The translations under genes and the position numbers were made by a program. A DNA stretch of 40,835 bases, taken from the NCBI GenBank assembly GCA_020848745.1, contig JADLHM010000073.1, forward strand, positions 1 to 40,835, in the 5' to 3' direction. The notes below the pieces were generated by a model, which worked only from the letters and a program-made list of their open reading frames with translations, had not been told where the DNA came from and ran no database searches. This document shows, in pieces, positions 4,449 to 19,194 of the stretch. Every line of letters begins with the position of its first letter. The stretch's first letter is position 1. The stretch is from Deltaproteobacteria bacterium. GTDB taxonomy: Bacteria; Desulfobacterota; Binatia; UTPRO1.

Positions 4449-6833
4449 ATGGCTGAGAAAAAGGGGATCGACCGCCGCTCGTTCCTGCTCGGCGCCGCGG
4501 GCGGTGCGGCGGCGACCGCGCTCGGCGCGGCCGGCGTCGCGGCCGTACGCGAGAAGTCGCGCCGCTTGCGCACGCCCGCCGCGGTCGATGCCGGGAAGCC
4601 GGCCGAGATCGCCGAGTCGTTCGCCGACTCGCGGCCGGCGTACGCCGCCGACGCGACGGCGCCGGCCGGCGCGCCGAACGTCGTGGTGATCATCCTCGAC
4701 GACGTCGGCTTCGCGGACCTCGGTTGCTACGGTAGCGAGATCCGCACGCCGAGTCTGGACGCGCTCGCGGCGGGCGGGCTCCGCTACACGAACTTCCGTA
4801 CCTGCGCGATGTGCTCGCCGACCCGGGCTGCCCTGATGACCGGCCTGAACCACCATTCCGCCGGCATGGGCTGGCTCGCCGACGTCGACGCCGGCTACCC
4901 CGGCTACCGCGGCGACCTGACGCACGACGCCGCGACGCTCGCCGAGGTGCTGCGCGAGCGCGGCTGGTCGACGCTGCACGTCGGCAAGTGGCACGTGAAC
5001 CTGGCCGCGTCGTGCGGCCCGACCGGTCCCTACCACAACTGGCCGACGAGCCGCGGCTTCGAGCGCGCCTACTGGTTCCAGGGCCATTCGACCGACTACT
5101 TCAAGCCGTCGGAGCTGATCGACGGCGTGACGCCGGTCGAGGCCGAGGAGCGCGACGACTACTTCGTCAACGACGCCCTCACCGACCGGGCGATCGCCTA
5201 CGTGCAGACGCAGAAGGCCGTCACGCCGGAGAAGCCCTTCTACCTCCAGCTCTGCTACCCGGCGGCGCACTCCCCGCTGCAGGCGCGTCCGCGCGACCGT
5301 GACGCGTACCGCGGCGCCTACGACGCGGGCTGGGACGTCGTGCGCGCGCGGCGCCTCGAGCGCCAGCGCGCGCTCGGCGTCGTGCCCGGGACGACGCAGC
5401 TTCCGCCGCTCTCGCCGGGCGCCGACCCGTGGGACCGCCTCGACGCCACCCAGCAGCGGGTCTGCGCGCGCTACATGGAGGTCTACGCCGGCTGCATCTC
5501 GAACGCCGACGCCAACATCGGCCGCTTCCTCGCCGCGCTCGACGCCGGGGGATGGCGCGAGAACACGCTCGTCCTCGTGTTCTCCGACAACGGCGGCTCG
5601 GCGGAGGGCACGCCGACCGGCACCCCGAACGTGTTCGCCCCGGCCTTCGGGCGGCCGGTACCGGTCGAGGAGGCCGCGAAGCTCTACGACGTCATGGGCG
5701 AGGACGCGACCTTCCCGCACTACCCGATCGGCTGGGCCTGCTGCTCGAACACGCCCTACAGGCTCTACAAGCAGTACGCGCACCTCGGCGGCGTCGCCGA
5801 CCCGCTGATCGTGTCGTGGCCGAAGCGCATCGCGGCCAAGGGCGAGCTGCGCACGCGCTTCGTGCACGTCGTCGACCTCTATCCGACGATCCTCGAGGCG
5901 ACCGGCGTCGAACGGCCCGCGACCCATCGCGGGCGGCGCCTCAAGCCCGTCGAGGGCACGAGCGTGCTCGCCACCTTCGCCGACCCCGCCGCGCCGACGC
6001 GCACCAGCCAGTACTTCGAGCTCGGCGGCCAGCGCGCGTTCCTGGATGGCGACTGGCGGCTCGCGACCCGCCACGCGCGCGGCACGCGCTTCGAGGACGA
6101 CGTCTGGGAGCTCTACGACCTCGCGGCGGATCCGAACGAGCTCGTCGATCTCGCCGCCGAGCATCCCGACAAGGTGCGCGAGCTCGTCGCGAAGTGGAAC
6201 GCCGCCGCCGAGCGGTACGGCGTCTTTCCGCTCGACGACCGCAACCTCGTCATCAAGATGGTGCAGGACCGGCAGCGGCGCGGCCTGCGCGCCGACTGGG
6301 AGCTCGTGCCGCCGCTCGAGCGGCTCGCGAGCCAGGTCGCGCCCCTCGTCTGCGCGCTCGGACACGAGATCACCGTCGAGCTCGAACGGCCGGCCGGGCG
6401 CGGCGACGGCGTCCTGCTCGCGCACGGGTCGCGGCACGCGGGCTACGTCCTGCACGTGCGCGACGGCCGGCTCGTCTACGAGCAGAGTCTGGCGCCGTGG
6501 AACGAGCGCATCGAGAGCGACGTCGCGCTGCCGGACGGCCCGGTCACGGTGCGCTACGTGCAGACGATGACCGCGCGTCCCTTCGACGGCACCGGCGCGC
6601 TCTACGTCGGCGATCGCAAGGTCGCCGAGCACGCGTTCGCGCGCGTGCTCTTTTCGACGTCCTACGACGGCTTCTCGCTGGGATCCGATCTCGGCAACCG
6701 CGTCTCGACGCTCTACGCGGGACCGAACCCCTTCCAGGGACGCATCGTGCGCGTCAAGATCCACGTCGACACCACGCCGTTCAGCGCGATCGAGACGATG
6801 CGCTTCATCGACGCGATCGGCATCCGCGTGTAG
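4449..6833 (+). CDS. Tat-exported type I sulfatase (arylsulfatase family)
   Basis: This enzyme hydrolyses sulfate esters using a formylglycine made from an active-site Cys. The 794-aa product begins with a twin-arginine motif (DRRSFLLG, Arg9-Arg10) followed by an Ala/Gly hydrophobic segment, so folded export to the periplasm is likely. ILDDVGFADLGCYG (about 82-95) supplies metal-binding Asp residues. CSPTR at Cys122-Arg126 is the canonical sulfatase signature. VFSDNGG (about 377-383) gives further metal ligands. The C-terminal ~220 residues form a beta-rich extension found in the larger arylsulfatases of about 750-800 aa. The start has GGGAGG upstream. The FGE-type gene follows within about 20 bp, which fits co-expression of substrate and activator. 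The substrate cannot be read from the sequence. Confidence 0.93.
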   Translation: MAEKKGIDRRSFLLGAAGGAAATALGAAGVAAVREKSRRLRTPAAVDAGKPAEIAESFADSRPAYAADATAPAGAPNVVVIILDDVGFADLGCYGSEIRTPSLDALAAGGLRYTNFRTCAMCSPTRAALMTGLNHHSAGMGWLADVDAGYPGYRGDLTHDAATLAEVLRERGWSTLHVGKWHVNLAASCGPTGPYHNWPTSRGFERAYWFQGHSTDYFKPSELIDGVTPVEAEERDDYFVNDALTDRAIAYVQTQKAVTPEKPFYLQLCYPAAHSPLQARPRDRDAYRGAYDAGWDVVRARRLERQRALGVVPGTTQLPPLSPGADPWDRLDATQQRVCARYMEVYAGCISNADANIGRFLAALDAGGWRENTLVLVFSDNGGSAEGTPTGTPNVFAPAFGRPVPVEEAAKLYDVMGEDATFPHYPIGWACCSNTPYRLYKQYAHLGGVADPLIVSWPKRIAAKGELRTRFVHVVDLYPTILEATGVERPATHRGRRLKPVEGTSVLATFADPAAPTRTSQYFELGGQRAFLDGDWRLATRHARGTRFEDDVWELYDLAADPNELVDLAAEHPDKVRELVAKWNAAAERYGVFPLDDRNLVIKMVQDRQRRGLRADWELVPPLERLASQVAPLVCALGHEITVELERPAGRGDGVLLAHGSRHAGYVLHVRDGRLVYEQSLAPWNERIESDVALPDGPVTVRYVQTMTARPFDGTGALYVGDRKVAEHAFARVLFSTSYDGFSLGSDLGNRVSTLYAGPNPFQGRIVRVKIHVDTTPFSAIETMRFIDAIGIRV

Positions 6834-6854
6834 CCGGCCGTGGGAGGCGAGGGC

Positions 6855-7730
6855 GTGCGCGACGTCGACGCGATGGTCACGGTGCCGGGTGGACGCTACG
6901 TCGTCGGGTCCGACGAGCACTACGCGGAGGAGCGGCCGGTGCGCGCGGTCGAGGTCGCGGCGTTCCGCGTCGGCGCGACGCCGGTCACCAACGGGGCGTT
7001 CGCGGCTTTCATCGAGGCGACGGGGTGGGTGACCGCCGCCGAGCGCGCCGACCCGCCGGGCTCCGCCGTGTTCGCGATGACGGCGGGACCGGTCGACCTC
7101 CACGACCCGATGCGCTGGTGGCGCTTCGTCGCGGGGGCGACGTGGCGCGCGCCCTTCGGCCCCGGCTCGACGATCGACGGCCGCGCCGACCACCCGGTCG
7201 TGCACGTCGGGCTCGCGGACGCCGAGGCGTACGCCGCGTGGCTCGGCAAGCGCCTGCCGACGGAGACCGAATGGGAGGCGGCGGCGCGCGGCGGTCTCGC
7301 GGGCGCCGCGTACGCCTGGGGCGACGAGCTCCTGCCCGCGGGGAGGCTCCTCGCGAACTTCTGGACCGGCGCCTTCCCCTGGTACTTCGCGCGCGCCGGC
7401 GCGCCCGGCACCACGCCGGTGGGGACGTTCCCCGCGAACGGCTTCGGGGCCTACGACATGATCGGCAACGTGTGGGAGTGGACCGCGTCGCCGTTCGCGG
7501 CGCCCGCCGCCGGGCCGCGCTGTGCGTGCGGAGGCGGCGATGTCGCCACGGGGCCGCCCGCTTCCGCGGGGCTCGCGGCCGCCGCGGAGCCCGCCCTCAT
7601 CACGCTCAAGGGCGGCTCGTACCTCTGCGCCGCCGAGTACTGCGCCCGCTACCGGCCCGCGGCGCGCATCGGCCTCACTGCGGATTCGACCACCGCGCAC
7701 GTCGGCTTCCGCTGCGCGGCCGACGCCTGA
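6855..7730 (+). CDS. Formylglycine-generating enzyme (SUMF1/FGE family)
   Basis: The enzyme oxidises the Cys of the sulfatase CxPxR motif to formylglycine, probably in the cytoplasm before Tat export. The frame opens at GTG 6840, but I prefer GTG 6855, which has GGGAGG 7 nt upstream; this gives 291 aa. Family features include [13 protein letters not shown] near the start, [14 protein letters not shown], and [31 protein letters not shown] holds the two catalytic cysteines, Cys258 and Cys263, with the spacing of the true aerobic copper-dependent FGE. Many family members (for example PvdO and EgtB-type proteins) lack this pair, so this is a strong call for real FGE activity. It lies directly downstream of its presumed client. 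Confidence 0.92.
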
Positions 7731-7795: not shown

Positions 7796-9208
7796 GTGCA
7801 CCTGCCGTCCCACAAGACGCGGATCGTCGCCACGATCGGGCCCGCATCGGAGTCGCCCGAGGTGCTCGAGCGCATGATCGGCGCCGGCATGAACGTTGCG
7901 CGCCTCAACTTCTCGCACGGGGACTTCGCGGCCCACGGCCGGCACATCGCGGCGATCCGCGCCGCGGCCGCGCGCGCCGGGCGGCCGGTCGCGATCATGG
8001 CCGATCTTTCCGGGCCGAAGATGCGGATCGGGACGCTCGCGGCCGAGCCGATCACGCTCCGCGCGGGCGATCGGCTCGTGCTCACGACCGACGACGTCGC
8101 CGGCACGGCCGAGCGGATCGGGGTGACGTTCGCGCGTCTGCCCGAGGTCGTGACGCCGGGCGACGTGCTGTCGCTCAACGACGGCTACATCCAGCTCGAG
8201 GTCGCACAGGCGCGCGGACGCGAGGTCGCGTGCGTGGTGCGGGTCGGCGGCGAGCTGCGGTCGAAGAAGGGCTTGAACCTCCCCGGTGTCGATCTCGGCA
8301 TCGGCGCCTTCACCGCGCGCGATCGAGAGTGTCTGGCGTTCGCGCTTGCGCACGGCGTCGACGCGGTGAGCCAGTCGTTCGTCGAGAGCGCCGCCGACGT
8401 CGACGCCGTTCGCGCGGCGGCACGCGCGCTCGGCCACGAGCCCTTCGTCATCGCCAAGATCGAGCGCTCGCGCGCGCTCACCCGGCTCGACGAGATCCTC
8501 GACGCCGCCGACGGCGTCATGATCGCGCGCGGCGACCTCGGGGTGGAGGTGCCGATCGAGCGCATCGCGGTCGTGCAGAAGGACATCATGCGACGCGCCA
8601 ATCAGCGCGCGAAGCCCGTCATCACCGCGACGCAGATGCTCGAGTCGATGACGGCCTACCGCCTGCCGACGCGCGCCGAGGCGACCGACGTCGCCAACGC
8701 CATCCTCGACGGCACCGACGCCGTGATGCTCTCCGGCGAGTCGGCGCTCGGCGCCTTTCCGGTCGAGTCGGTCGCGACGCTGGCGCGGATCGCGACCGAG
8801 GTCGAACCGACGCGCTGCCAGCTCACGGTCGCCGGGATGTTCGCCGGCATCGACCTGCGCGGGCGGCTCCTCCCCGCGCACCTCGTCCTCGTCGGCATCG
8901 AGGCGAGCGTCGCGTACCTGAAGCCCGCCGCCGTGTTCGCGCGGACCCGTGACGGCAACTCGGCCCGCCGCCTCGCCGCGTTCCGCCTCCCGGTCTGGAC
9001 CGTCGCCGTGTGCGACGACGCTCGCACCGCGCAGCAGCTGCTCTTCTCGTGCGGCGTCGTCCCGGTGCACCTTCCGGAGGCCCCGGCCTCATGGAACGAC
9101 TGGATCCGGGGCTGGCTCGCCGGGCACGATCTCGCCGGGGGCTTCGCCATCCTCACGCAGCGGACGGAGGAGGAGGGGAACCACCGGGTGGACTTCATCG
9201 AGCTGTAG
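7796..9208 (+). CDS. pyk: Pyruvate kinase
   Basis: It transfers phosphate from phosphoenolpyruvate to ADP, the last step of glycolysis. The 470-aa product is the normal bacterial length. Diagnostic segments in order are HKTRIVATIGPAS, GMNVARLNFSHG, MADLSGPKMRIG, AVSQSFV, the catalytic-Lys segment FVIAKIERS, the metal-binding MIARGDLGVE and the signature TATQMLESM. A C-terminal allosteric-type domain follows. I chose GTG 7796 because it places the N-terminus just before the family's first strand; no good ribosome binding site is visible. TTG 7754 would add 14 residues. The gene is separated by only 65 bp from the FGE gene, so read-through is possible, but a functional link is not implied. It converges with the MBL gene 44 bp away. 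Confidence 0.95.
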   Translation: MHLPSHKTRIVATIGPASESPEVLERMIGAGMNVARLNFSHGDFAAHGRHIAAIRAAAARAGRPVAIMADLSGPKMRIGTLAAEPITLRAGDRLVLTTDDVAGTAERIGVTFARLPEVVTPGDVLSLNDGYIQLEVAQARGREVACVVRVGGELRSKKGLNLPGVDLGIGAFTARDRECLAFALAHGVDAVSQSFVESAADVDAVRAAARALGHEPFVIAKIERSRALTRLDEILDAADGVMIARGDLGVEVPIERIAVVQKDIMRRANQRAKPVITATQMLESMTAYRLPTRAEATDVANAILDGTDAVMLSGESALGAFPVESVATLARIATEVEPTRCQLTVAGMFAGIDLRGRLLPAHLVLVGIEASVAYLKPAAVFARTRDGNSARRLAAFRLPVWTVAVCDDARTAQQLLFSCGVVPVHLPEAPASWNDWIRGWLAGHDLAGGFAILTQRTEEEGNHRVDFIEL

Positions 9209-9252
9209 GGCCCGCGACGGCAGCCCGGCACGGGTGCGCGCGCCGTGCGGAG

Positions 9253-10335
9253 CTATTGGCGCACCACCCCCACCACGACCTCGTTCGACGCCGCCGGCAG
9301 CGTGACCAACGTCCCGTCGTCGCCGAGGATCCAGCCCTCGGGGCGCACGTCCGCGACGCCGCGCAGGAAGACCTTCGCGACGAGCGCGTTCGGGGGCGGC
9401 GGGTTCAGGTGGTACATCACGAGGAGGCGCACGCCGGCCTCGTTCGCGCTCTCGGCCGCCTCGACCGGCGTCGCGTGGTAGCTCGGGATGTCGCGCATGA
9501 TCCTGGCGACGCGGTCGCGGCCGGCGCCGGCCGCCGCCTCGCCGATCATGGCGATCAGGTGGTTCGCCTGGGCCTCGTGGACGAGGACGTCGGCGCCGTG
9601 CGCCGCGGCGATCAGGGCGGGGCTCTTGGCGGTATCGCCGCTCACCACGACCGACCGGCCCCGGTAGTCGAAGCGATAGCCGTAGGCGGGTGTCGCCGGC
9701 TCGTGGTTCACCGGGAACGCGGTGACGACGAGCCCGCCCTCCTCGAGCACCGTGACCGGTTTCGCGCCGGGCGGCGCCACGACGGGAAGCGCGCGCATGC
9801 GTTCGATCGCGGGCGGCAGGAGATCGGCGCCGTGATGGGCGACGCGATAGCTCGTGTCGAGCGCGTAGGCCTCCTGGAAGCCGGCGACCACGCGCTCGAC
9901 GCCTGGCGGCCCGTAGACGCGCAGAGGCTCGGGACGGCCGGCCGCCCAGGTCTGGAGGTTGAGCTCGCCGAGCTCGGCGATGTGGTCGGAATGGAAGTGC
10001 GTGTAGAGCACGGCGCCGATGTGCTTGCCGTCGACGCGCATCAAGGCGAGCCGATTCCACGACTGTGGCCCCGTATCGACGACCCAGAGCTTGCCGGCCG
10101 CGAAGACGGCGACGCACGCCTTCGCGCGCGTCGGATGCGGCAGCGGCGCGTCCGATCCGCAGAGCGCGACGCGCAGCGCGTCGTCCGCGAGGAGCGCGTT
10201 GCCGCGCTGCTCGATCAGGCGCGGGATCACCTGGCGCAGCACCGCGTCCTGGAGCGCCGGCGAGCGCCAGAGCGCCGCGAGCCCGAGCGCCCCGACCAGC
10301 ACGAGGCCGACCACCAGCCGGAGAAGTCGTCGCAT
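9253..10335 (-). CDS. Exported or membrane-tethered MBL-fold metallohydrolase
   Basis: The product is 360 aa. Residues 7-22 form a hydrophobic N-terminal segment (uncleaved anchor or signal peptide), so the enzyme probably acts in the periplasm. The binuclear metal site is visible: THFHSDH (His113, His115, Asp117, His118), the Asp in VVSGDTAKS, and a late His in MYHL. The arrangement resembles the RNase Z / zinc-dependent arylsulfatase (AtsA-like) branch of the superfamily. The ATG has GGAGAG upstream. It is the last gene of the operon with HupE, PPIase and DUF3604, 37 bp after the HupE stop. The substrate is unknown; a phosphodiester, sulfate ester or lactone are all possible. Confidence 0.85.
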   Translation of the reverse strand: MRRLLRLVVGLVLVGALGLAALWRSPALQDAVLRQVIPRLIEQRGNALLADDALRVALCGSDAPLPHPTRAKACVAVFAAGKLWVVDTGPQSWNRLALMRVDGKHIGAVLYTHFHSDHIAELGELNLQTWAAGRPEPLRVYGPPGVERVVAGFQEAYALDTSYRVAHHGADLLPPAIERMRALPVVAPPGAKPVTVLEEGGLVVTAFPVNHEPATPAYGYRFDYRGRSVVVSGDTAKSPALIAAAHGADVLVHEAQANHLIAMIGEAAAGAGRDRVARIMRDIPSYHATPVEAAESANEAGVRLLVMYHLNPPPPNALVAKVFLRGVADVRPEGWILGDDGTLVTLPAASNEVVVGVVRQ

Positions 10336-10372
10336 GGCGCGCTCTCCTACCGGGTCGGGGCGGCCCGTGCCA

Positions 10373-11494
10373 TCACGCGAGAAGGAGGCGTGCGCGCTCG
10401 ATCATCCAGCACGCGGCGAGCGATCCCATCGCATAGATCGGCACCGCGTCGGCCCAGGCGGGAAGGCGAGCGACGACCGGCCGCGTGAGAGCGCGGAGCG
10501 CGAGCACCGTCAGCACGAACGCGAGCTGTCCGAGCTCGATGCCGGCGTTGAAGCCGAGGAGCGCGAGCGGCACGGCGTCGGCGGGGAGGCCGGCGGCGCG
10601 CAGCGTGCCCGCGAAGCCGAGCCCGTGGAGGAAGCCGAACGCGAGCGCCATGAGCCAGGGACGGCGCCGCATCCGGGTCGCGCCGCCGGCGCCGCCGTCG
10701 AGCCTGTCCGCGTCGGCGCGGCTCCTCGGGCGCGCCAGCTCGACCGCGAGCACGAAGATGCTGAACGCGATCAGCACCTCGACCGGCGCCGGCGGCACGC
10801 GGGCGACGTCGAGGACGGCGAGCGTCAGCGTGACGCTGTGGCCGAGCGTGAACGCGGTGATCGTCGCCACCAGGCGTCGCCAGTCGGTCGCGAGCAGCAG
10901 CAGCCCGAACACGAAGAGCAGGTGGTCGTACCCGGTCAGGATGTGGTCGACGCCGAGGCCGACGTAGCGCCGTGCGACGTCGAGCGCCGTGTCACGCTCC
11001 GATACGATGAACGTCGGGTCGCGCGCGCGCAGCACCGTGTCGATCGTGCGTCCGTCGGCAAGCTCGAGATGAAGGAGCGCATCCGTCTTCGCGCCGCCGA
11101 GGCCGTCGACGCCGAGGGTCGCGCCGACGAGACCCGTCGTGCCGCAGTCGGCCGTCCAGTGCGACGTGAGGCTCTCCGTGGTCTCGTCGATCGTCGGCGG
11201 GCCGGTCGCGGCGCACGCCGGCGGCAGGACCGGACGGAGCTCGGCCCCGATGAGCCGGAGCGTCGGGATCTTCCAGGTGACCGCGAACGTGCCGGGCGTC
11301 GTCTCGCGAAGCCCGAGGAGGGCGGGCGAGAGCGCGTGCGCGCCGACGCGTGCGGGCGCGGCGGCGAGCGCGCCGAGCCCGACGAGCAGCGCGAGCGCGA
11401 GCGGCCGCGCGACCCGTGCGCGTGGCGACGCCAGGCGACATCCGGCGGCGCCACGTCGCGCGCCGTGCCCGGCGGCCGCCCGGCTACCCGGCAT
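10373..11494 (-). CDS. HupE/UreJ-family multi-pass membrane protein with exported N-terminal domain
   Basis: The product is 373 aa. A basic N-terminus and hydrophobic segment (about 30-48) end in AHA, then an extracytoplasmic domain of about 130 residues with two Cys. Six or seven membrane helices follow with the HupE/UreJ hallmarks GYDHLLFVFGLLLL, TAFTLGHSVTLTLA, FGFLHGLGFA and FNAGIELGQLAFV, which carry conserved His/Asp/Glu in the membrane. Relatives next to hydrogenases and ureases are thought to move nickel or cobalt; this longer type is uncharacterised. The start codon overlaps the end of the PPIase gene by 11 nt, suggesting translational coupling. No hydrogenase or urease genes are present, so the metal and partner must be sought in the operon itself. 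Confidence 0.88.
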   Translation of the reverse strand: MPGSRAAAGHGARRGAAGCRLASPRARVARPLALALLVGLGALAAAPARVGAHALSPALLGLRETTPGTFAVTWKIPTLRLIGAELRPVLPPACAATGPPTIDETTESLTSHWTADCGTTGLVGATLGVDGLGGAKTDALLHLELADGRTIDTVLRARDPTFIVSERDTALDVARRYVGLGVDHILTGYDHLLFVFGLLLLATDWRRLVATITAFTLGHSVTLTLAVLDVARVPPAPVEVLIAFSIFVLAVELARPRSRADADRLDGGAGGATRMRRRPWLMALAFGFLHGLGFAGTLRAAGLPADAVPLALLGFNAGIELGQLAFVLTVLALRALTRPVVARLPAWADAVPIYAMGSLAACWMIERARLLLA

Positions 11495-12479
11495 GCTCGT
11501 TCTCCACCCGTACGACGTACGCGGCGCGGAGCTCGTCCATCATGCGGGCGAGGTACCGATCGCGCCGCTCGGCGCGCCAGGCGCGGAGCACGCGCGCGCG
11601 GACGGCGTCGAGGGGCGGCAGGTCGCCGGCGCGCCGTGCGCTCACCCGGACGAGGTGGACGCCGTAGGGAGAGCGGATCGGCTCCGACCACGTGTCGGCG
11701 GGGAGCGCGAGCGCGGCGACGGCGAAGTCGTCCCCGAACGTCTTCGCGAGCGTGGCGCGCGAGACGGCGCGGAGCGTGCTGCCGGCGATGAACGGGTCGC
11801 CGAAGCGCGCGGCGACCTCGGGGGAGACGCGCTCGGAGCGGAGACGCGCGAGCAGCGCCCATGCGTCGCCGTCGAGCGTCGCTCCGCGGGTCGTCGCGTT
11901 CAGGAACACCTGCGTCAGCGTGACGCTGTCGCTCCGCCGATAGCGCACCGGCTGGCGCGTCATGAAGGCGACGAGCTCGCGGTCGAGCGCCGCCCCCGTC
12001 GGCTCGTCCTGGCGGCTCGCGGCCTTGGCGAGGAGGCGCATCTTGGTGACGAGGGCGTTTCGCACCACGACGTCGTCCTTGTCGAGGCCGAGCGCGATGC
12101 CGCGCCGGTAGGCCGTCTCCGCATCGCCCGCCGCCTCGCCATAGAGGAAGTGCATCTTCTCGACGACCCGCCAGCGGACGGCGCCGTCGCCGCGGTCGAG
12201 GCCGAGCACGAGCGCCTCGCGGTAGAGCATCTCCTCGTCGGCGGCGCGGGCGACGAGCGCCCGCAGCTCCTCGGAGGTCGGTGGCGCGAGGCTCCGCGCG
12301 TAGTCGGCGCGGATCTCGGCGACCCGCGCCGCCGAGATCACGATCGGGTCCCGCCCGCGCGCCGCGTCCGGGGGGCGGGCCGCGGCCTGGAGCGCCGCGA
12401 GCCCGGCGCCGAGCAGGAGGAAGTGCAGCGCCGGGAGGCGAGCCCCGGCGCCGATGATGCGACCGGCGGCGGCGAGCAC
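11484..12479 (-). CDS. Parvulin-type peptidyl-prolyl cis-trans isomerase, membrane-anchored
   Basis: The product is 331 aa. A hydrophobic N-terminal segment (about 15-35) gives an exported or anchored topology. A helical SurA/PpiC-like N-domain follows, and a C-terminal parvulin domain (about 190-305) includes the recognisable ending EPIRSPYGVHLVRV. Parvulins speed proline isomerisation and act as periplasmic chaperones. It starts at GTG 12479, 9 nt after the DUF3604 stop with no strong ribosome binding site, so its translation may depend on the upstream gene. The DUF3604-PPIase-HupE order suggests it helps fold one of its neighbours, most likely the exported DUF3604 protein. Confidence 0.85.
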   Translation of the reverse strand: MLAAAGRIIGAGARLPALHFLLLGAGLAALQAAARPPDAARGRDPIVISAARVAEIRADYARSLAPPTSEELRALVARAADEEMLYREALVLGLDRGDGAVRWRVVEKMHFLYGEAAGDAETAYRRGIALGLDKDDVVVRNALVTKMRLLAKAASRQDEPTGAALDRELVAFMTRQPVRYRRSDSVTLTQVFLNATTRGATLDGDAWALLARLRSERVSPEVAARFGDPFIAGSTLRAVSRATLAKTFGDDFAVAALALPADTWSEPIRSPYGVHLVRVSARRAGDLPPLDAVRARVLRAWRAERRDRYLARMMDELRAAYVVRVENEHAG

Positions 12480-12488
12480 GAGCGGGGG

Positions 12489-14879
12489 CTAACGCGAGGC
12501 TTTCAGCTTCCCGCGGAGCCCCTCCCAGACGCGGCCGTCGCTCTGGTCGTAGGCGCCGCTCGCGAGCCGGACGTCCACCCGGTGCGTCGTCGTCCCGGCG
12601 TTCGAAAGGTCCAGGCGCACGGTGTCGAGCGTCAACGTCGCGGTGCCGTGCTTGTTGATCCGGAGCCGCGCCTTCTTGACGCCGTCGACGCTGCCGGTCG
12701 GGTCGTCGTAGAGGTAGTTCCGGCCCGGGCTGCGCGTGGCGAACGCGCCCGCCGGAAGCGTCGCGGCGTAGACGGCGTCGTCGTCCGTCACGGTCACCGT
12801 GAGGCCGTTCGCGACGACGTCGAGCGCGGCGGGCAGCCGGCCGATGGTGAGCTCGAGGCGCAGCCGGTCGCTCGCCGGCGCCTTCCCGAAGCGGATCTGG
12901 CCCTTCGTGCCGAACCGCTCCGGCTGGTAGTAGATCGGCGAGGTCCAGGCGCGCTCCTGGATCGTGTCGTCGGCGAGGCCGAGGCAGCACTCGCGGTAGA
13001 TCGTCGGCACCGACGCGAAGTCGGTGCAGTCGACGGCGAGCGCGTTGCAGAGCCGCTTGCTCCACCGGCAGACCGGGTTCTCGAGCACGCGGGCGTAGTA
13101 GAAGGCGCGCTCCTCGGGACGGAACGAGGGATCCTGCCAGACGGCGCAGAGCGACGACGCGCCCGTCCCCGTCGGCGCGCAGGTGGCGAGATCGACGCCC
13201 GCCTTGCCGCGGGCGTCGCCCGCGACCTCGAAGACGCGCTCGTGGACCTGACCGTCCGCGTCGGCCCAGCCCTTCACGATCTGGACGCGCTCGAGGGGGG
13301 TGCTCGGCTCGCCGTTGCCGCCGGGATCCCGCAGCGCCATGACCGCGAAGCGCGGGCTCCGCCGCCCGAGCGCGGGTCCGATCTCGCCGCCCATCGGCAC
13401 GCCGTGCGTGTAGCCCTCCTCGACGAAGCTCGCGTCCTCGCACGCGCCCTTCGGGGGATGCCCGCCGAAGAAGCGGACGATCGGCCGCGTGCCGCTCGTC
13501 GCGTACGCCTCACGGCGCCGCATGGCCGCGAAGAGCGCGTCGCGCGAGTTCTCCTCCGCCCACAGGACGGTGAGGCCGCCGCCGTTGGTGACGATGCCGC
13601 CGGGCGCGATCTTCGAGAGGATGTTCTCGGCGCTGCCGTCGCGCACGCCGAGGTGTCCGGTCGTGCCGAAGTCCTCTTCGACGACACCGCCGGCGAGGCT
13701 CGAGTGGCCGTCGGTGCCGCCGACGAAGCCGAGCGCGAAGGGGTTGGCGCCGAGCACGTCCTGCAGGCGGAGGCCCTCCATGAGCGCGTTCCGGACGAAG
13801 TTCCGCGCCGGCACGGGCTGGTCCTTGAGCGTACTGGAGAAGAGCTGCTGGCGTTGCAGCTGCTCGAACCCGCAGAGCTCGTCGTTCGGCGAACTCGAGG
13901 GCTGGCACTCCGAGCTGCCCTTGTGCTGGAAGACCTCGACGAGCGTCTCGTGGCCGGCGCGCCGCTCGGCGTCGGCGCGCGTGAGCGGCGAGCCGTCGCC
14001 GTTCTTCGACTCGAACATCAGCCCGCCGCTCACGTTCGAGTTGTGCGGGATCGAGACGAAGTCGCAATTGCCCGCGGCGTCGAGGCAGTCGGTTTCGAGG
14101 ACGCTCCACAAGCCCTCGACGAGGGGCTGCTCGTAGTAGCTCGTGGGCAGCGCCGGCACCTCGGCGTTCCGGAAGATGATGTTGCGGTGCAGGTTGTAGC
14201 CGTCGAGGTTGTTCGTCCACTCGTACGCCGGGAAGGTCGTGAAGGCGCACGCGTCGGTGCGGTCGTAGAACTCCTCGGCTGCGTCGAGCTCGTCCTGCCA
14301 CACGAGCGCCGCCTGGGTGAGACAGTTGACGTTGCCCGGTCCGCAGAGGCCGAGCCGCATCGGGTTCGCCGCCTGGATCGTCAGCTGGAACGCGATCACG
14401 ACCGCCGGGATCGGCGCGGTGATGCCGTCGGGCGGGCTCGCGAGCTCGGCGCGGGCGTCCTGGCAGATCGGGTCGTCGTAGCCCGGCAGGCCCGCGGTCA
14501 AGCAGGTGCGGATCTCGCCGAGGAACTCCGAGTGATCGGTGACGGCGGTGAAGTCGAGCGGCCGGCGGAGCTGCGCGGAGCGCGTCGGCTGGTCCAGCGC
14601 GTCGTAGGGCGGGAGCGCGATCTGCTCGCCGCGCGCGAAGCGGTAGGCGTCGCGCGGCGTCGTGCGCACCCGGACGAACGCCGCGTCGCCCGAGAAGCTC
14701 GTGTGGATGTGGGTCTCGCCGAAGAAGGGGGTCCGCAGGGGATCGTAGCTTGCGCAGTCGGCGCGGCTCTCGGTGCGGACCCAGTCCTGCTGCGGCGGAT
14801 CCGCGTAGGCCGCGGCGGCGACCGACATCGCGAGACACGAGAAGGCCACGAAGGCGAACGAACGTGGGGGGCGACGCAT
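12489..14879 (-). CDS. DUF3604 exported PHP-like metallohydrolase
   Basis: The product is 796 aa. ATG 14879 has GAGGAGG 5 nt upstream and starts a signal peptide ending near residue 27 (AAAYA-DP). The motifs resemble PHP-type metal sites: FGETHIHTSFS (His57, His59), TDHSEFLG (Asp115, His116), VSIPHNSN and GGTDGHSSLAGG. The C-terminal third is beta-rich. DUF3604 proteins have no established function that I know of; by analogy with PHP proteins, hydrolysis of a phosphoester or related ester is plausible. Many Cys residues are present, fitting an oxidising periplasm. It is the first gene of a four-gene operon. A possible -35 TTGACG lies at 14957-14952 (minus strand), but no good -10 follows it. 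Confidence 0.9.
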   Translation of the reverse strand: MRRPPRSFAFVAFSCLAMSVAAAAYADPPQQDWVRTESRADCASYDPLRTPFFGETHIHTSFSGDAAFVRVRTTPRDAYRFARGEQIALPPYDALDQPTRSAQLRRPLDFTAVTDHSEFLGEIRTCLTAGLPGYDDPICQDARAELASPPDGITAPIPAVVIAFQLTIQAANPMRLGLCGPGNVNCLTQAALVWQDELDAAEEFYDRTDACAFTTFPAYEWTNNLDGYNLHRNIIFRNAEVPALPTSYYEQPLVEGLWSVLETDCLDAAGNCDFVSIPHNSNVSGGLMFESKNGDGSPLTRADAERRAGHETLVEVFQHKGSSECQPSSSPNDELCGFEQLQRQQLFSSTLKDQPVPARNFVRNALMEGLRLQDVLGANPFALGFVGGTDGHSSLAGGVVEEDFGTTGHLGVRDGSAENILSKIAPGGIVTNGGGLTVLWAEENSRDALFAAMRRREAYATSGTRPIVRFFGGHPPKGACEDASFVEEGYTHGVPMGGEIGPALGRRSPRFAVMALRDPGGNGEPSTPLERVQIVKGWADADGQVHERVFEVAGDARGKAGVDLATCAPTGTGASSLCAVWQDPSFRPEERAFYYARVLENPVCRWSKRLCNALAVDCTDFASVPTIYRECCLGLADDTIQERAWTSPIYYQPERFGTKGQIRFGKAPASDRLRLELTIGRLPAALDVVANGLTVTVTDDDAVYAATLPAGAFATRSPGRNYLYDDPTGSVDGVKKARLRINKHGTATLTLDTVRLDLSNAGTTTHRVDVRLASGAYDQSDGRVWEGLRGKLKASR

Positions 14880-15057
14880 GGAAGTCCTCCTCGCGGCCGA
14901 CGGCTCGGCACGGCACCGCGAAGATCCACGAGTCTCAGGACGATCGTCCAACGTCAAGAGAAAAAACGACCGGGAGCACGCTCGGTGGCGTGATCCATGC
15001 GCTTGACGCTCTCGCGACGTGGACCTGGTGAGAAATGCGGGCTAAGCCAGCGGCGCC

Positions 15058-16230
15058 GTGGCGTCGCCGCGTCTCGCGCTCTGGGGGTCGGAGCTCTCGC
15101 CGTTCGCGCTCAAGGTGCGGGCGTGTCTCGACTGGGCGGGCCTCGGCTACGAATGGCTGCCCGCCGAGGGCGGACGGCTCCGCAACCTGCGCGTGAATTG
15201 GATGATCGAGCGCGCCAAGCGGGCGCGGACCGTCGAGCGCCATCCGCGTCTCGACCCGCTCGACGAGTATCCGCTCGTGCCGTTCCTCGTGGTCGACGAC
15301 CGGCGCGTGCTCTACGACTCGTCGGCGCTCGCGCGGTGGATCGACGACTGCCACCCCTCCGCGCACGGACGCCTCGTGCCGACCGATCCCGCGGCCGCGT
15401 TCGTGGCGCGTCTCCTCGACGAGGCCTTCGACGAATTCGGGCTCTACATCGCGCACCACAACCGCTGGGTCGTGTCGGCGACCACCAACGACGCGGGTGC
15501 GCGGCTCGCGCGCGAGTTCCGCCGCGTGCTGCCGCCGGGCACGGGATGGATCATGGCGCGACGCTTCGCCGCGCGGCAGGTGCGGCGGCTGCCGTACCTC
15601 TTCAGCGTCGCGCCGGCGGGCTTCTCGGTCGGCCTCCGACCGGCGCTCACGCCGCCCGCGCCCGCCGGTTTCCCGCCGACACACGCGCTCCTCGGCGAGG
15701 CGTGGGTCGGCTTCCTCGCGGCCCTCGAGCCCGTGCTGGCCCGCCGTCCCTACCTTCTCGGCGCCGGCTTCACGATCGCCGACGCCGGCGTGTACGGGCA
15801 GCTCGCGATGAACCTCGCCGACCCGACGGCGGCCGACGATCTCCGCGCGCGCGCGCCACGGACGTTCGCATGGCTCCAGGCGGTCCGCGCCCGCCGGCAC
15901 GCCGGCGCGAGCGGCCCACCGGCCCTCCCGCACGACCTCGCCCCGCTCCTCGACGTCGTCGCGCGCACCTTCGTGCCGCTCATGCGGCAGAACGCGCACG
16001 CCTACGCGGCGACGCGCGGGCACGGCGAGACGCTCTTCAACGAGCGCGCCTTCGACCGTGGGCGGGCGCTCTATGACGGGACGCTCCTCGGGCGCCCGTT
16101 CCGCGCGGTCGTGAAGACCTTCCAGGTGCGCGTCTGGCGGGAGCTGCGAGCGGCCTGGAGGGCGCTCGACGCCGACGCCCGCGCGCGCGTCGGCGCGCTC
16201 GTGTCCCCCGAGCCGTTCGACGCGGGATGA
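15058..16230 (+). CDS. Glutathione S-transferase-like protein with long C-terminal region
   Basis: The product is 390 aa. The thioredoxin-fold N-domain is visible: SELSPFALKVRACLDWAGL (about 12-30), followed by the cis-Pro region YPLVPFLVVDD and the glutathione-contact segment LYDSSALARWIDD. A helical C-domain includes YLLGAGFTIADAGVYGQLAM (about 237-256), the GST helix carrying the conserved Asp. At about 390 aa it is much longer than standard GSTs (about 210), with about 120 additional C-terminal residues I do not recognise. It starts at GTG 15058 with a poor ribosome binding site. It is transcribed divergently from the DUF3604 operon across 178 bp. Conjugation, dehalogenation or stress functions cannot be separated from sequence. 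Confidence 0.85.
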   Translation: MASPRLALWGSELSPFALKVRACLDWAGLGYEWLPAEGGRLRNLRVNWMIERAKRARTVERHPRLDPLDEYPLVPFLVVDDRRVLYDSSALARWIDDCHPSAHGRLVPTDPAAAFVARLLDEAFDEFGLYIAHHNRWVVSATTNDAGARLAREFRRVLPPGTGWIMARRFAARQVRRLPYLFSVAPAGFSVGLRPALTPPAPAGFPPTHALLGEAWVGFLAALEPVLARRPYLLGAGFTIADAGVYGQLAMNLADPTAADDLRARAPRTFAWLQAVRARRHAGASGPPALPHDLAPLLDVVARTFVPLMRQNAHAYAATRGHGETLFNERAFDRGRALYDGTLLGRPFRAVVKTFQVRVWRELRAAWRALDADARARVGALVSPEPFDAG

Positions 16231-16312: not shown

Positions 16313-17713
16313 ATGCGCGTACGACGGTTCCTGGCGGCGATGGGTTTGGCGACGGTCGTGGCATGCGGCGCGGCGGTGCCGGCGGCGCGGGGGGCGATCG
16401 ACGTTCCGGTCGAGAAGACGACGCTCGCGAACGGCCTCACGGTACTGGTCCACGAGGATCGCGATCTTCCCGTGGTGAGCCTCTACATCTTCTTCCGCAC
16501 CGGCTCGCGCAACGAGCGCCCCGGGATCACCGGCATCTCGCACCTCTTCGAGCACATGATGTTCAACGGCGGCGAGCACACGGTCGGCAAGTTCGACGAG
16601 ATCATCGAAGGGAACGGCGGCTCCACCAACGGCTATACGACGCGCGACTTCACCGTGTACCTCGAGAGCTTCCCGCCCCCGGCCCTCGAGCGCGTGCTGT
16701 GGCTCGAAGCCGACCGCATGCGCGCCCTCGCCATCACGGAGAAGAACCTCGAGCAGGAGCGCGGCATCGTGAAGGAGGAGCGGCGCCTGCGCACCGACGA
16801 CGATCCCGAAGGCACGATGTACGAGCAGATCTATCTCGCCGCCTACGAGGCCAGCACCTATCGCTGGGGGCCGATCGGGTTCATGGCCGACATCGGCGCG
16901 ATCACGCTCGACGACGCCAAGAGCTACTTCCGCACCTACTACGCCCCCAACAACGCGACGGTGGTGCTGGCCGGCGCGGTGACCGCGCGCGAGGGCTTCG
17001 CGCTCGTCGACAAATACTTCGGCGGCATCCCGGCGCAGGCGCCGCCGCGGGCGGTCGTGAACGTCGAGCCGCCCCAGAACGGGCCGAAGACCGTCGAGTA
17101 TCACAAGGTCGCCGAGCTGCCTTCGGTCGCGATCGCGTACAAGGCCGTGAGCGCGCGCCATCCCGACCGCCCCGCGCTCGACGTCCTGCAGACGATCCTC
17201 GGCCACGGACAGAGCTCGCGGCTCCATCGCGCCATCGTCCGCGAGAAGGAGCTCGCGAGCGGCGTCGATGTGAGCTTCAACTGGGGGATCGACCCGGAGC
17301 TCTTCTGGTTTTCGGGCCAGGTGCGTCCCGGCAAGAGCGCCAAGGCGCTCGCGCGGGCGATCGAGGCCGAGGTCGTGAAGCTCCGCGAGCATCCACCCGA
17401 CGAGCGCGAGCTCCGCAAGGCCAAGAACCTCCTCCAGGCCGACTACGTGCGCGGGCTGAGCTCGGTCTCCGGCAAGGCGAACCAGCTCGGGTTCTACGAG
17501 GTCGTGTTCGGCGATCACCGTGAGATGTTCAAGGAGACGGAGCGGGTCGAGGCGGTGACGGCGGCCGACGTGCAGCGCGTGGCGCGCACCTACCTGGTGC
17601 CGAGCGAGCGGACGACCATCGAGCTCGTGCCCGAGCGGCCGACGGCGGGGACCCCGCCGCCACGGCCGGCCGGCGCGTCCACCGGTCCGTCGGAGCCGGG
17701 GGTGACGCGATGA
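16313..17713 (+). CDS. M16 zinc peptidase, catalytic partner
   Basis: The product is 466 aa. ATG 16313 has GGAGGA upstream and leads into a signal peptide (residues 1-27, ending ARG-A). The inverted zinc motif HLFEH is intact (His77, Glu80, His81), and a Glu about 75 residues later (KEER, 155-156) completes the site. It is therefore a predicted active pitrilysin-type M16B protease of the periplasm or outer membrane, related to mitochondrial processing peptidase beta. Its stop overlaps the start of the second M16 gene by 4 nt (ATGA), implying coupled translation and a stoichiometric complex. The last ~30 residues are a Pro/Gly/Thr-rich tail. Confidence 0.93.
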   Translation: MRVRRFLAAMGLATVVACGAAVPAARGAIDVPVEKTTLANGLTVLVHEDRDLPVVSLYIFFRTGSRNERPGITGISHLFEHMMFNGGEHTVGKFDEIIEGNGGSTNGYTTRDFTVYLESFPPPALERVLWLEADRMRALAITEKNLEQERGIVKEERRLRTDDDPEGTMYEQIYLAAYEASTYRWGPIGFMADIGAITLDDAKSYFRTYYAPNNATVVLAGAVTAREGFALVDKYFGGIPAQAPPRAVVNVEPPQNGPKTVEYHKVAELPSVAIAYKAVSARHPDRPALDVLQTILGHGQSSRLHRAIVREKELASGVDVSFNWGIDPELFWFSGQVRPGKSAKALARAIEAEVVKLREHPPDERELRKAKNLLQADYVRGLSSVSGKANQLGFYEVVFGDHREMFKETERVEAVTAADVQRVARTYLVPSERTTIELVPERPTAGTPPPRPAGASTGPSEPGVTR

Positions 17714-19194
17714 CGCGCCAGATGTCGCGTTCTTCGCGTGCCGCCCTCGTGCTCGCGTGCGCGGCTTCCGTGGCGGTCGGGTGCGCGCCGCGCGGCGCGC
17801 TCTTCGGCGCGAGCCGGTCGACGCCGCCGTCGATCGGGCCGCCGGCGGCCGCGGTCACGATGCCGCGGGTCACCGAGCGGGTCCTCGCGAACGGCCTCAC
17901 GGTGCTCGTCTCGGAGTACCACGCGCTGCCGATCATGCGCTTCCACCTCCTCCTCCCCGGCGGTGCGGCGTACGATCCGGCCGGCAAGGAGGGCGTCGCC
18001 GAGCTCACGGCCGAGCTCCTGGACCAGGGCACGATCCGGCGTAGCGCCGAGGACCTCGCGCGCGAGGTCGAGTTCCTCGGCGGCCAGCTCGGTGCCGATG
18101 CCGGCACCGACTTCTCCACGGTCGGGGGGGAGTTCCTGAGCAAGGATTTCGATGCCGGTCTCGATCTCTTCAGCGACGTGGTGTTGCATCCTGCCTTCCG
18201 CGCCGACGAGCTGAAGCGCACGCGGGGCCTCATGCTCGCCGGCCTCGTCTCCGGACGCGACAACCCGGCCACGGTCGCCGAGACTTGCTACGCGCGCTGG
18301 CTCTACGGCGCGCACCCCTACGGCCACCTCTCGCGCGGCACCGAGGGGAGCGTGCGGCGTCTCGGCGGCCCCGACGTGCAGCGTTTCTACGCGCGGCACT
18401 ACGTGCCCGACCACGCCATCCTCGTCGTGATCGGGGACGCGCCGAGCGCCGACATCCTCGCCAGGGTCGAGCGCGCCTTCGGCGGATGGAAGCGGGGCGG
18501 AGCGGCGGTCGAGCCGCCGGCGGCGCCGAGCCGCATCAGCGGTCGGCGCATCCTGCTGGTCGACAAGCCCGACGCCACCCAGACCCACATCCGCATCGGC
18601 AACATCGCGATCGCCCGTACCGATCCGAGCTACGTGGCCGCCAACGTCACCAGCACGATCCTCGGCGGCGGGTTCGGGGCGCGGCTGATCGACGAGCTGC
18701 GCGTGAAGCGGAGCCTCACCTACGGCGCGTGGAGCGGCTTCGCCGCGCGTAAGGCGCCGGGCGATTTCCGGGTCGGCACGTTCACCAAGGTCGAGACGAC
18801 GGGCGAGGCGCTCGAGGTCGCGCTCGGCGTGCTCGACGGCTTCGCGGCGAAGGGCGCGACGTCCGAGGAGCTGGCGCGGGCGCAGAGCCTGCTGACGGGC
18901 CAGTTCCCGAAGCAGCTCGAGACGCCGGGCGCCGTCGCGGGGAAGCTCGCGGAGCTCGCCGGGTTCGGGCTCCCGCGGAGCGATCTCGAGGCCTATCCGG
19001 CGCGCGTGAACGCGACCTCGCTCGCGGACGTGGCGCGTCTCGCCCGGCGCTGGGTGCCGACCGCCGACGCCGCGATCGTCGTCGTGGGCCCGGCCGAGCG
19101 CATCGCGCCGCAGCTCGCGAAGTTCGGGACGGTGGAGCGAACGACGCCCGCCGGCTGCGAGGGGCCGCAGGCGCCGACGGCGGCGGGTCGCTGA
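17710..19194 (+). CDS. M16-family lipoprotein, predicted non-catalytic partner
   Basis: The product is 494 aa. The N-terminus has a hydrophobic stretch ending AVGC, a plausible lipobox, so membrane tethering is likely. The position corresponding to HxxEH reads GVAELTAELL: both zinc-binding His residues are gone. A glycine-rich loop (GGGFGARLIDELR) is retained in the second half, as in the non-catalytic subunits of MPP-type heterodimers. With the coupled upstream active subunit this suggests an active/inactive heterodimer held at a membrane. The substrate is unknown; signal or lipoprotein-type peptides and misfolded exported proteins are candidates. Confidence 0.92.
   Translation: MTRQMSRSSRAALVLACAASVAVGCAPRGALFGASRSTPPSIGPPAAAVTMPRVTERVLANGLTVLVSEYHALPIMRFHLLLPGGAAYDPAGKEGVAELTAELLDQGTIRRSAEDLAREVEFLGGQLGADAGTDFSTVGGEFLSKDFDAGLDLFSDVVLHPAFRADELKRTRGLMLAGLVSGRDNPATVAETCYARWLYGAHPYGHLSRGTEGSVRRLGGPDVQRFYARHYVPDHAILVVIGDAPSADILARVERAFGGWKRGGAAVEPPAAPSRISGRRILLVDKPDATQTHIRIGNIAIARTDPSYVAANVTSTILGGGFGARLIDELRVKRSLTYGAWSGFAARKAPGDFRVGTFTKVETTGEALEVALGVLDGFAAKGATSEELARAQSLLTGQFPKQLETPGAVAGKLAELAGFGLPRSDLEAYPARVNATSLADVARLARRWVPTADAAIVVVGPAERIAPQLAKFGTVERTTPAGCEGPQAPTAAGR

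Follow-up and report, generated by a model that had tools for sequence, protein, structure and literature searches.

The window analysed here, 40,835 nucleotides (nt) long, is the whole of contig JADLHM010000073.1 (contig C73 of G000, a 4.88-Mb genome of a Deltaproteobacteria bacterium, assembly GCA_020848745.1), and it carries a compact cluster of four genes coding for a DUF3604 protein, a parvulin-like protein, a HupE/UreJ-type permease and a metallo-beta-lactamase-fold (MBL) protein. The first three genes recur together across phyla and, since the true partners outscored all swapped ones, are inherited as units, while the MBL gene is a lineage-specific, recurrent fourth gene outside the general module. 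With a probability of roughly one half, we propose that the trio is an envelope module in which a chaperone and a metal-capturing permease serve an exported hydrolase of the PHP type, and to which the MBL protein was added in the class of the window.

DUF3604 was present in 13 of 198 sampled genomes of the window's own phylum, and all three genes stood together at twelve loci, as judged from the positions of the HupE_UreJ_2 and Rotamase_2 matches and from the regions read. The order DUF3604-parvulin-HupE prevailed at these loci, with gene ends overlapping or nearly touching; L041 differed in having HupE-DUF3604-parvulin. The wider survey, in which one genome per species was scanned with the DUF3604 alignment, gave 80 GTDB loci ranked by DUF3604 similarity only. 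The parvulin and the HupE genes lay near DUF3604 in 21 of these, where the order and tight spacing of the own-phylum loci recurred, and the parvulin only in 5 more. The trio was spread over the own phylum, Myxococcota, Gammaproteobacteria, Alphaproteobacteria (including annotated Rhizobium plasmids), Flavobacteriia and one cyanobacterium; in the Acidobacteriota loci only the parvulin accompanied DUF3604. Every HupE match in the 80 loci (1.35 Mb) was at most 4.5 kb, and every match of this parvulin subfamily at most 3.6 kb, from a DUF3604 gene. When the count was restricted to the 45 loci whose two flanks each reach 6 kb or more, both partners were found in 16, the parvulin only in 3 and neither in 26. 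All nine annotated plasmid regions examined (Rhizobium, Sinorhizobium, Ensifer, Rhodobacter) contained the trio, again in this order and closely spaced, annotated as 'DUF3604 domain-containing protein', peptidyl-prolyl isomerase and 'HupE/UreJ family protein', and no other constant neighbour was found in these nine. The original prediction, made from the sequence of the window, had noted that the three genes seem to travel together in other bacteria and had named a survey of gene neighbourhoods as the way to check it. The linkage was borne out, far above chance, with the trio recurring across phyla and the MBL gene recurring in the own class.

In Flavobacteriia and Symploca, DUF3604 genes form arrays of three to five that share one parvulin and one HupE gene (L137, L140, L142), which suggests that the parvulin and HupE are accessory to the enzyme. 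L133 is also listed among the arrays of this kind. A Pfam tally of 149 neighbour proteins showed no recurring pathway, only the common short-chain dehydrogenase/reductase (SDR) and acyl-CoA dehydrogenase genes, and an Rfam scan of six loci gave no riboswitch. Contig C5 of the window's genome carries another trio (L031, 5688-10235), whose DUF3604 protein is extended at the N-terminus by about 250 residues; by eye, a short histidine-kinase-like gene and a response-regulator-like gene immediately precede this trio.

In trees built for each protein from 41 loci, the same main paralogue groups appeared, and L031, L183, L042 and L100 clustered in all three trees, though L031 shares its genome with the window copy. 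A simple Mantel correlation was set aside as a test of co-inheritance, because it partly reflects the species phylogeny. Instead, partners were exchanged among the paralogous trios inside each of three genomes (G000, G018 and G092), which removes the species signal and gives 480 pairings. The true pairing was the best of the 480 for DUF3604 with parvulin (0.327), DUF3604 with HupE (0.719) and parvulin with HupE (0.437). With the divergent L043 removed, it again ranked first, among 96 pairings, for every gene pair.

The features of the cluster in the window are the following.

14879-12489, minus strand: DUF3604 gene, 796 amino acids, PF12228 with E 2.5e-161
12479-11484, minus strand: parvulin gene, 331 amino acids, GTG start, PF13145 with 40 bits
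11494-10373, minus strand: HupE_UreJ_2 gene, 373 amino acids, PF13795 with 151 bits
10335-9253, minus strand: MBL gene, 360 amino acids, PF12706/PF00753
14880-15057: intergenic region of 178 nt between the DUF3604 gene and a divergent glutathione S-transferase (GST)-like gene, from the gene calls and the sequence

The order DUF3604-parvulin-HupE-MBL, with a spacing of 9 nt, an overlap of 11 nt (-11) and a spacing of 37 nt, is exactly as first described. The GTG start of the parvulin gene lies 9 nt past the DUF3604 stop, and good Shine-Dalgarno-like sequences precede the starts of DUF3604, HupE and MBL. A codon-based gene caller agreed on all four genes but placed the MBL start slightly further downstream. 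The MBL gene converges on a pyruvate-kinase-like gene, with 44 nt between their stops. The spacing, together with the conservation, suggests that the four genes are co-transcribed. A consensus scan gave no promoter-like, sigma-70-like site in 9000-15200 and no terminator-like site between the four genes, a result that carries little weight in a GC-rich genome. By its position, the 178-nt region is the likely candidate for the promoter site of the operon.

The window DUF3604 protein matched PF12228 with 538.5 bits (gathering cut-off 20.4) over positions 3-591 of 591, a domain which sequence libraries label as one of unknown function. The DUF3604 profile had no match among PDB sequences, so a comparison of folds was needed. 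The AlphaFold model (predicted local distance difference test, pLDDT, 86.9; predicted template modelling score 0.84) aligned with the PHP-like structure 3e38 (BVU_3505) at Z 15.9 over 234 residues with a root-mean-square deviation (rmsd) of 3.7, the next row having Z 5.3. Antibody domains, the top Foldseek rows, were set aside, since they match the C-terminal beta region only. H57, H59, D65, H116, H231, H279, E315, D390 and H392 were invariant in 58 homologues and D115 nearly so, and these residues (H57, H59, D65, D115-H116, H231, H279, E315, D390, H392) are candidate metal ligands. The PHP metal motifs HxH, DH, H and DxH were all found (H57, H59, H116, H231, H279, D390, H392). By these motifs and by its fold, the distorted beta/alpha barrel of the PHP superfamily, DUF3604 is thus a PHP-type metallohydrolase, with predicted activity. 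It has the fold and the invariant HxH, DH, H, H, E and DxH residues in common with the CehA/McbA metallohydrolases and BVU_3505, but is far longer than their PHP core and has a C-terminal beta domain beyond it. The window protein did not match the CehA/McbA model (NF038032, cut-off 80) at E 0.001; a divergent, bridging homologue (L063) matched PF12228 with 66.8 bits, PHP weakly and CehA/McbA with 91.7 against the cut-off of 80. CehA represents the best-characterised neighbour family and is reported to hydrolyse carbamates, among them carbaryl and oxamyl.

The permease matched PF13795 with 151.3 bits (gathering score 24.5), and its profile had no match among PDB sequences. It consists of a signal peptide, a mature N-terminal His53, a beta-sandwich (residues 58-163) and a transmembrane part. 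By alignment, His53 is the first mature residue (VGA|H53, the cleavage site being predicted) and is His in 52 of 55 homologues. The first transmembrane region holds HX5DH, the motif of the HupE-type nickel permeases, with H184 kept in 54, D190 in 53 and H191 in all 55 of the 55 homologues. In the model (pLDDT 85.2) the N-terminal domain resembled zinc-bound ZrgA (8f1b, Z 10.2), PA4063 with zinc (7bgo, Z 9.4) and the copper-bound Ang-1 domain of a HupE/UreJ-2 protein (9gce, Z 8.1, 105 residues, rmsd 3.2). By the mature His, the Ig-like beta-sandwich and HX5DH the protein is an anglerase-type permease, for which metal capture is predicted, in keeping with the original proposal that HupE handles the metal. 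In the homologue RbAng-1a, Ang-1 bound Cu2+ at 74 nM and Ni2+ at 220 nM, and its N-terminal His holds the copper (PMC12537917). The window HupE shares with the anglerases of that study (RbAng-1a, 9gce) the PF13795 permease, the periplasmic beta-sandwich and the mature N-terminal His, but stands with DUF3604 and the parvulin instead of the DUF4198, indigoidine-synthase-like and PfkB genes reported there as anglerase neighbours; neither DUF3604 nor a parvulin is mentioned in its main text (PMC12537917). Two HupE homologues of more than 720 amino acids (L050, 3510-5681; L061, 8206-10407) have a much longer N-terminal part and start with ADDAGIT after the signal peptide, and so are without the mature histidine; one of them adjoins a parvulin.

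The earlier remark that the window contains no urease or hydrogenase to explain HupE holds genome-wide: neither urease alpha nor the NiFe-hydrogenase large subunit had a match in the whole assembly (99.5% complete). The classical clients of HupE are therefore absent, and nickel supply to urease or hydrogenase was rejected as its role in this genome.

The parvulin was matched by PF13145 (Rotamase_2) with 40 bits against a threshold of 27, over positions 59-120 of 121 only. It consists of an N-terminal membrane anchor, a SurA/PrsA-like domain and a diverged parvulin domain, and the family profile matches the SurA, PrsA and HP_0175 chains in the PDB. Active parvulin isomerases need two catalytic histidines. 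The position of the first is occupied in the window by Q190 (Gln in 28 and His in 25 of 58 homologues), while the last is kept as H275 (His in 54 of 58), and the active pair is thus not present. Since the first catalytic His is lost, 'chaperone' is a safer label than 'isomerase', and a chaperone role appears likelier than catalysis of proline isomerisation. The window parvulin shares with the SurA/PrsA chaperones the profile match and the succession of a SurA-like N-domain and a parvulin domain; unlike them, it has a single diverged domain, a membrane anchor, Gln for the first His and fixed genomic partners.

The MBL protein has an N-terminal membrane anchor and is RNase Z/GntH/arylsulfatase-like. 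HxHxDH and the downstream H, D and H ligands are present, HFHSDH, H211, D234 and H287/H309 being invariant in 10 homologues. Sequence matches and an intact dinuclear-zinc motif are shared with PNGM-1 (6j4n), an MBL-fold arylsulfatase (8gyg) and GntH; in contrast to these, the window protein is membrane-anchored and falls below the equivalog cut-offs for RNase Z (NF000806, 148 vs 363) and GntH (117 vs 333). Full-length close homologues were found in many genomes of the own class. The class-wide search overturned the view that the MBL gene is unlinked to the trio: in six genomes from three families the MBL gene follows the trio in the same orientation. These are G000 with G338 from its genus and G334 from its family, G257 and G258 from a second family, where a DUF1330 or GST-like gene intervenes before MBL, and G277 from a third. 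In G258 the neighbouring genes from GST through MBL all overlap by 1-4 nt. At L170 and L171, where parvulin and HupE are missing, MBL genes immediately precede DUF3604 genes. For six linkages in about 50 genomes, a rough binomial calculation gives a value below 5e-5, which serves as a guide only, the genomes being related. The fourth gene, noted originally for the window, is thus a recurrent one in this class. Most trio loci are without MBL, and the gene is unlinked in many genomes that have both (G018, G092, G174, G271, G274-276), often standing beside GST-like or SDR genes. GST-like genes of 340-430 amino acids recur by the MBL gene or the trio in the class (L165, L166, L168, L175, L177, L182 and window 15058-16230); L166 has a DSBA-like gene besides. 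On Rhizobium indicum plasmids (L146, L149) a GntH-type MBL gene (536 bits) comes after the trio, together with a gene for a CobW/ZigA-like metal-chaperone GTPase, and these neighbours suggest a link to the handling of zinc or another metal.

In the proposed mechanism, DUF3604 would be exported by Sec and, once in the periplasm, would fold as a PHP-type hydrolase that has a multi-metal centre. At the inner membrane, the tethered, SurA-like parvulin would hold or fold protein that has just been exported. The periplasmic domain of HupE would catch a transition-metal ion via the mature N-terminal His and hand it to the HX5DH permease; the capture is carried over from the RbAng-1a homologue, and the direction is presumed. 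Parvulin and HupE would jointly assist the folding of one or several DUF3604 enzymes and provide them with metal, and in the own class the anchored MBL protein would have been added to the transcription unit, probably drawing on the same metal supply. The export route, the metal, its transfer and the relation of chaperone and client are what we infer here. A stronger form of this proposal casts the trio as a machine dedicated to metallation in the periplasm, with the tethered chaperone holding the Sec-exported PHP enzyme while the anglerase arm delivers the metal; it is possible but doubtful. If true, it would be a route by which a metal donor linked to a permease loads a Sec-exported metalloenzyme outside the cytosol.

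Several points weigh against the proposal. HupE is regarded as an importer that carries metal into the cytosol, while DUF3604 would need it in the periplasm. The tested anglerases favour Cu and Ni, while PHP enzymes usually hold Mn, Fe or Zn. The tree correlation of DUF3604 and parvulin is weak (r 0.33). DUF3604 stands without either partner in 26 of the 45 fully flanked loci, which means that the enzyme manages without the parvulin-HupE pair or uses a distant one. Parvulin-HupE pairs without DUF3604 at L037, L047, L050 and L055 show that the pair is not dedicated to DUF3604. The original supposition that the parvulin folds the exported DUF3604 enzyme is weakened by these pairs, by DUF3604-parvulin pairs that have no HupE and by the missing first His. 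Taken as a whole, the observation behind the original prediction stands; its interpretation was supported in part, by the conserved trio, the metal marks of HupE, the PHP-type DUF3604, the genome-wide lack of a urease or NiFe-hydrogenase match and the recurrence of MBL in the class, while an exclusive tie of parvulin to DUF3604 had to be given up.

The expected inward direction of HupE is better explained by the main alternative, metal scavenging, according to which the parvulin-HupE pair would import metal and DUF3604, as a helper, would cleave a periplasmic metal-binding compound, the freed ion being caught by the anglerase arm. The closest relatives of the HupE N-domain, ZrgA and PA4063, are periplasmic zinc-binding proteins, and the CobW/ZigA-like gene after the Rhizobium indicum trio fits as well; the reading would account both for an importer beside an exported hydrolase and for parvulin-HupE occurring alone. 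Several DUF3604 genes per single HupE are unexpected for a helper, however, and no recurrent TonB receptor, metal regulator or metallophore genes were found among the neighbours, nor a riboswitch in the six loci scanned, and we regard scavenging as unlikely.

The four loci with parvulin-HupE alone, and the adjoining position of these two genes in nearly every locus having both, would also agree with only two true partners, the parvulin serving the insertion of HupE or the folding of its periplasmic domain and DUF3604 being linked by shared regulation rather than by needs of metal or folding. DUF3604-parvulin pairs without HupE were present at six loci (L052, L053, L054, L088, L104, L121), and DUF3604 kept its partners significantly with both genes, which makes this explanation, too, an improbable one. 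The weakest is the pathway proposed originally, in which DUF3604 and then MBL would attack one extracellular ester and HupE and parvulin would serve their maturation; it is very unlikely in spite of the trio-MBL order in six genomes, the MBL genes at L170 and L171 and the GntH-type gene in Rhizobium indicum, since most trio loci have no MBL, the gene stands apart with GST or SDR genes in the genomes named above, and that GntH and the window MBL are only 28% identical over 220 residues.

Anglerase-type permeases (named in 2025), the PHP fold and SurA-like chaperones are already known. No report of the constant DUF3604-parvulin-HupE combination was found in the literature searched, most subscription journals lying outside its coverage, and DUF3604 was named there by a single paper, in passing. 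A domain that had no assigned function is placed by fold and motif among the PHP-type metallohydrolases, its most frequent partners being a probable chaperone and a metal-catching permease; the anglerases obtain a candidate client enzyme and DUF3604 a possible metal dependence. The question is raised how Sec-exported metalloenzymes get their metal, and the presence of the trio on rhizobial plasmids makes it tractable for laboratory study.

Two further gene pairs on the plus strand of the window were noted. A Tat-type sulfatase gene with the CSPTR formylglycine motif is directly followed by a formylglycine-generating-enzyme (FGE)-like sulfatase-modifying gene (4449-7730), apparently a self-contained sulfatase and activator, and the same pair occupies the same place in L165. 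At 16340-19194 two adjoining M16-type peptidase genes have the look of a zinc-protease pair.

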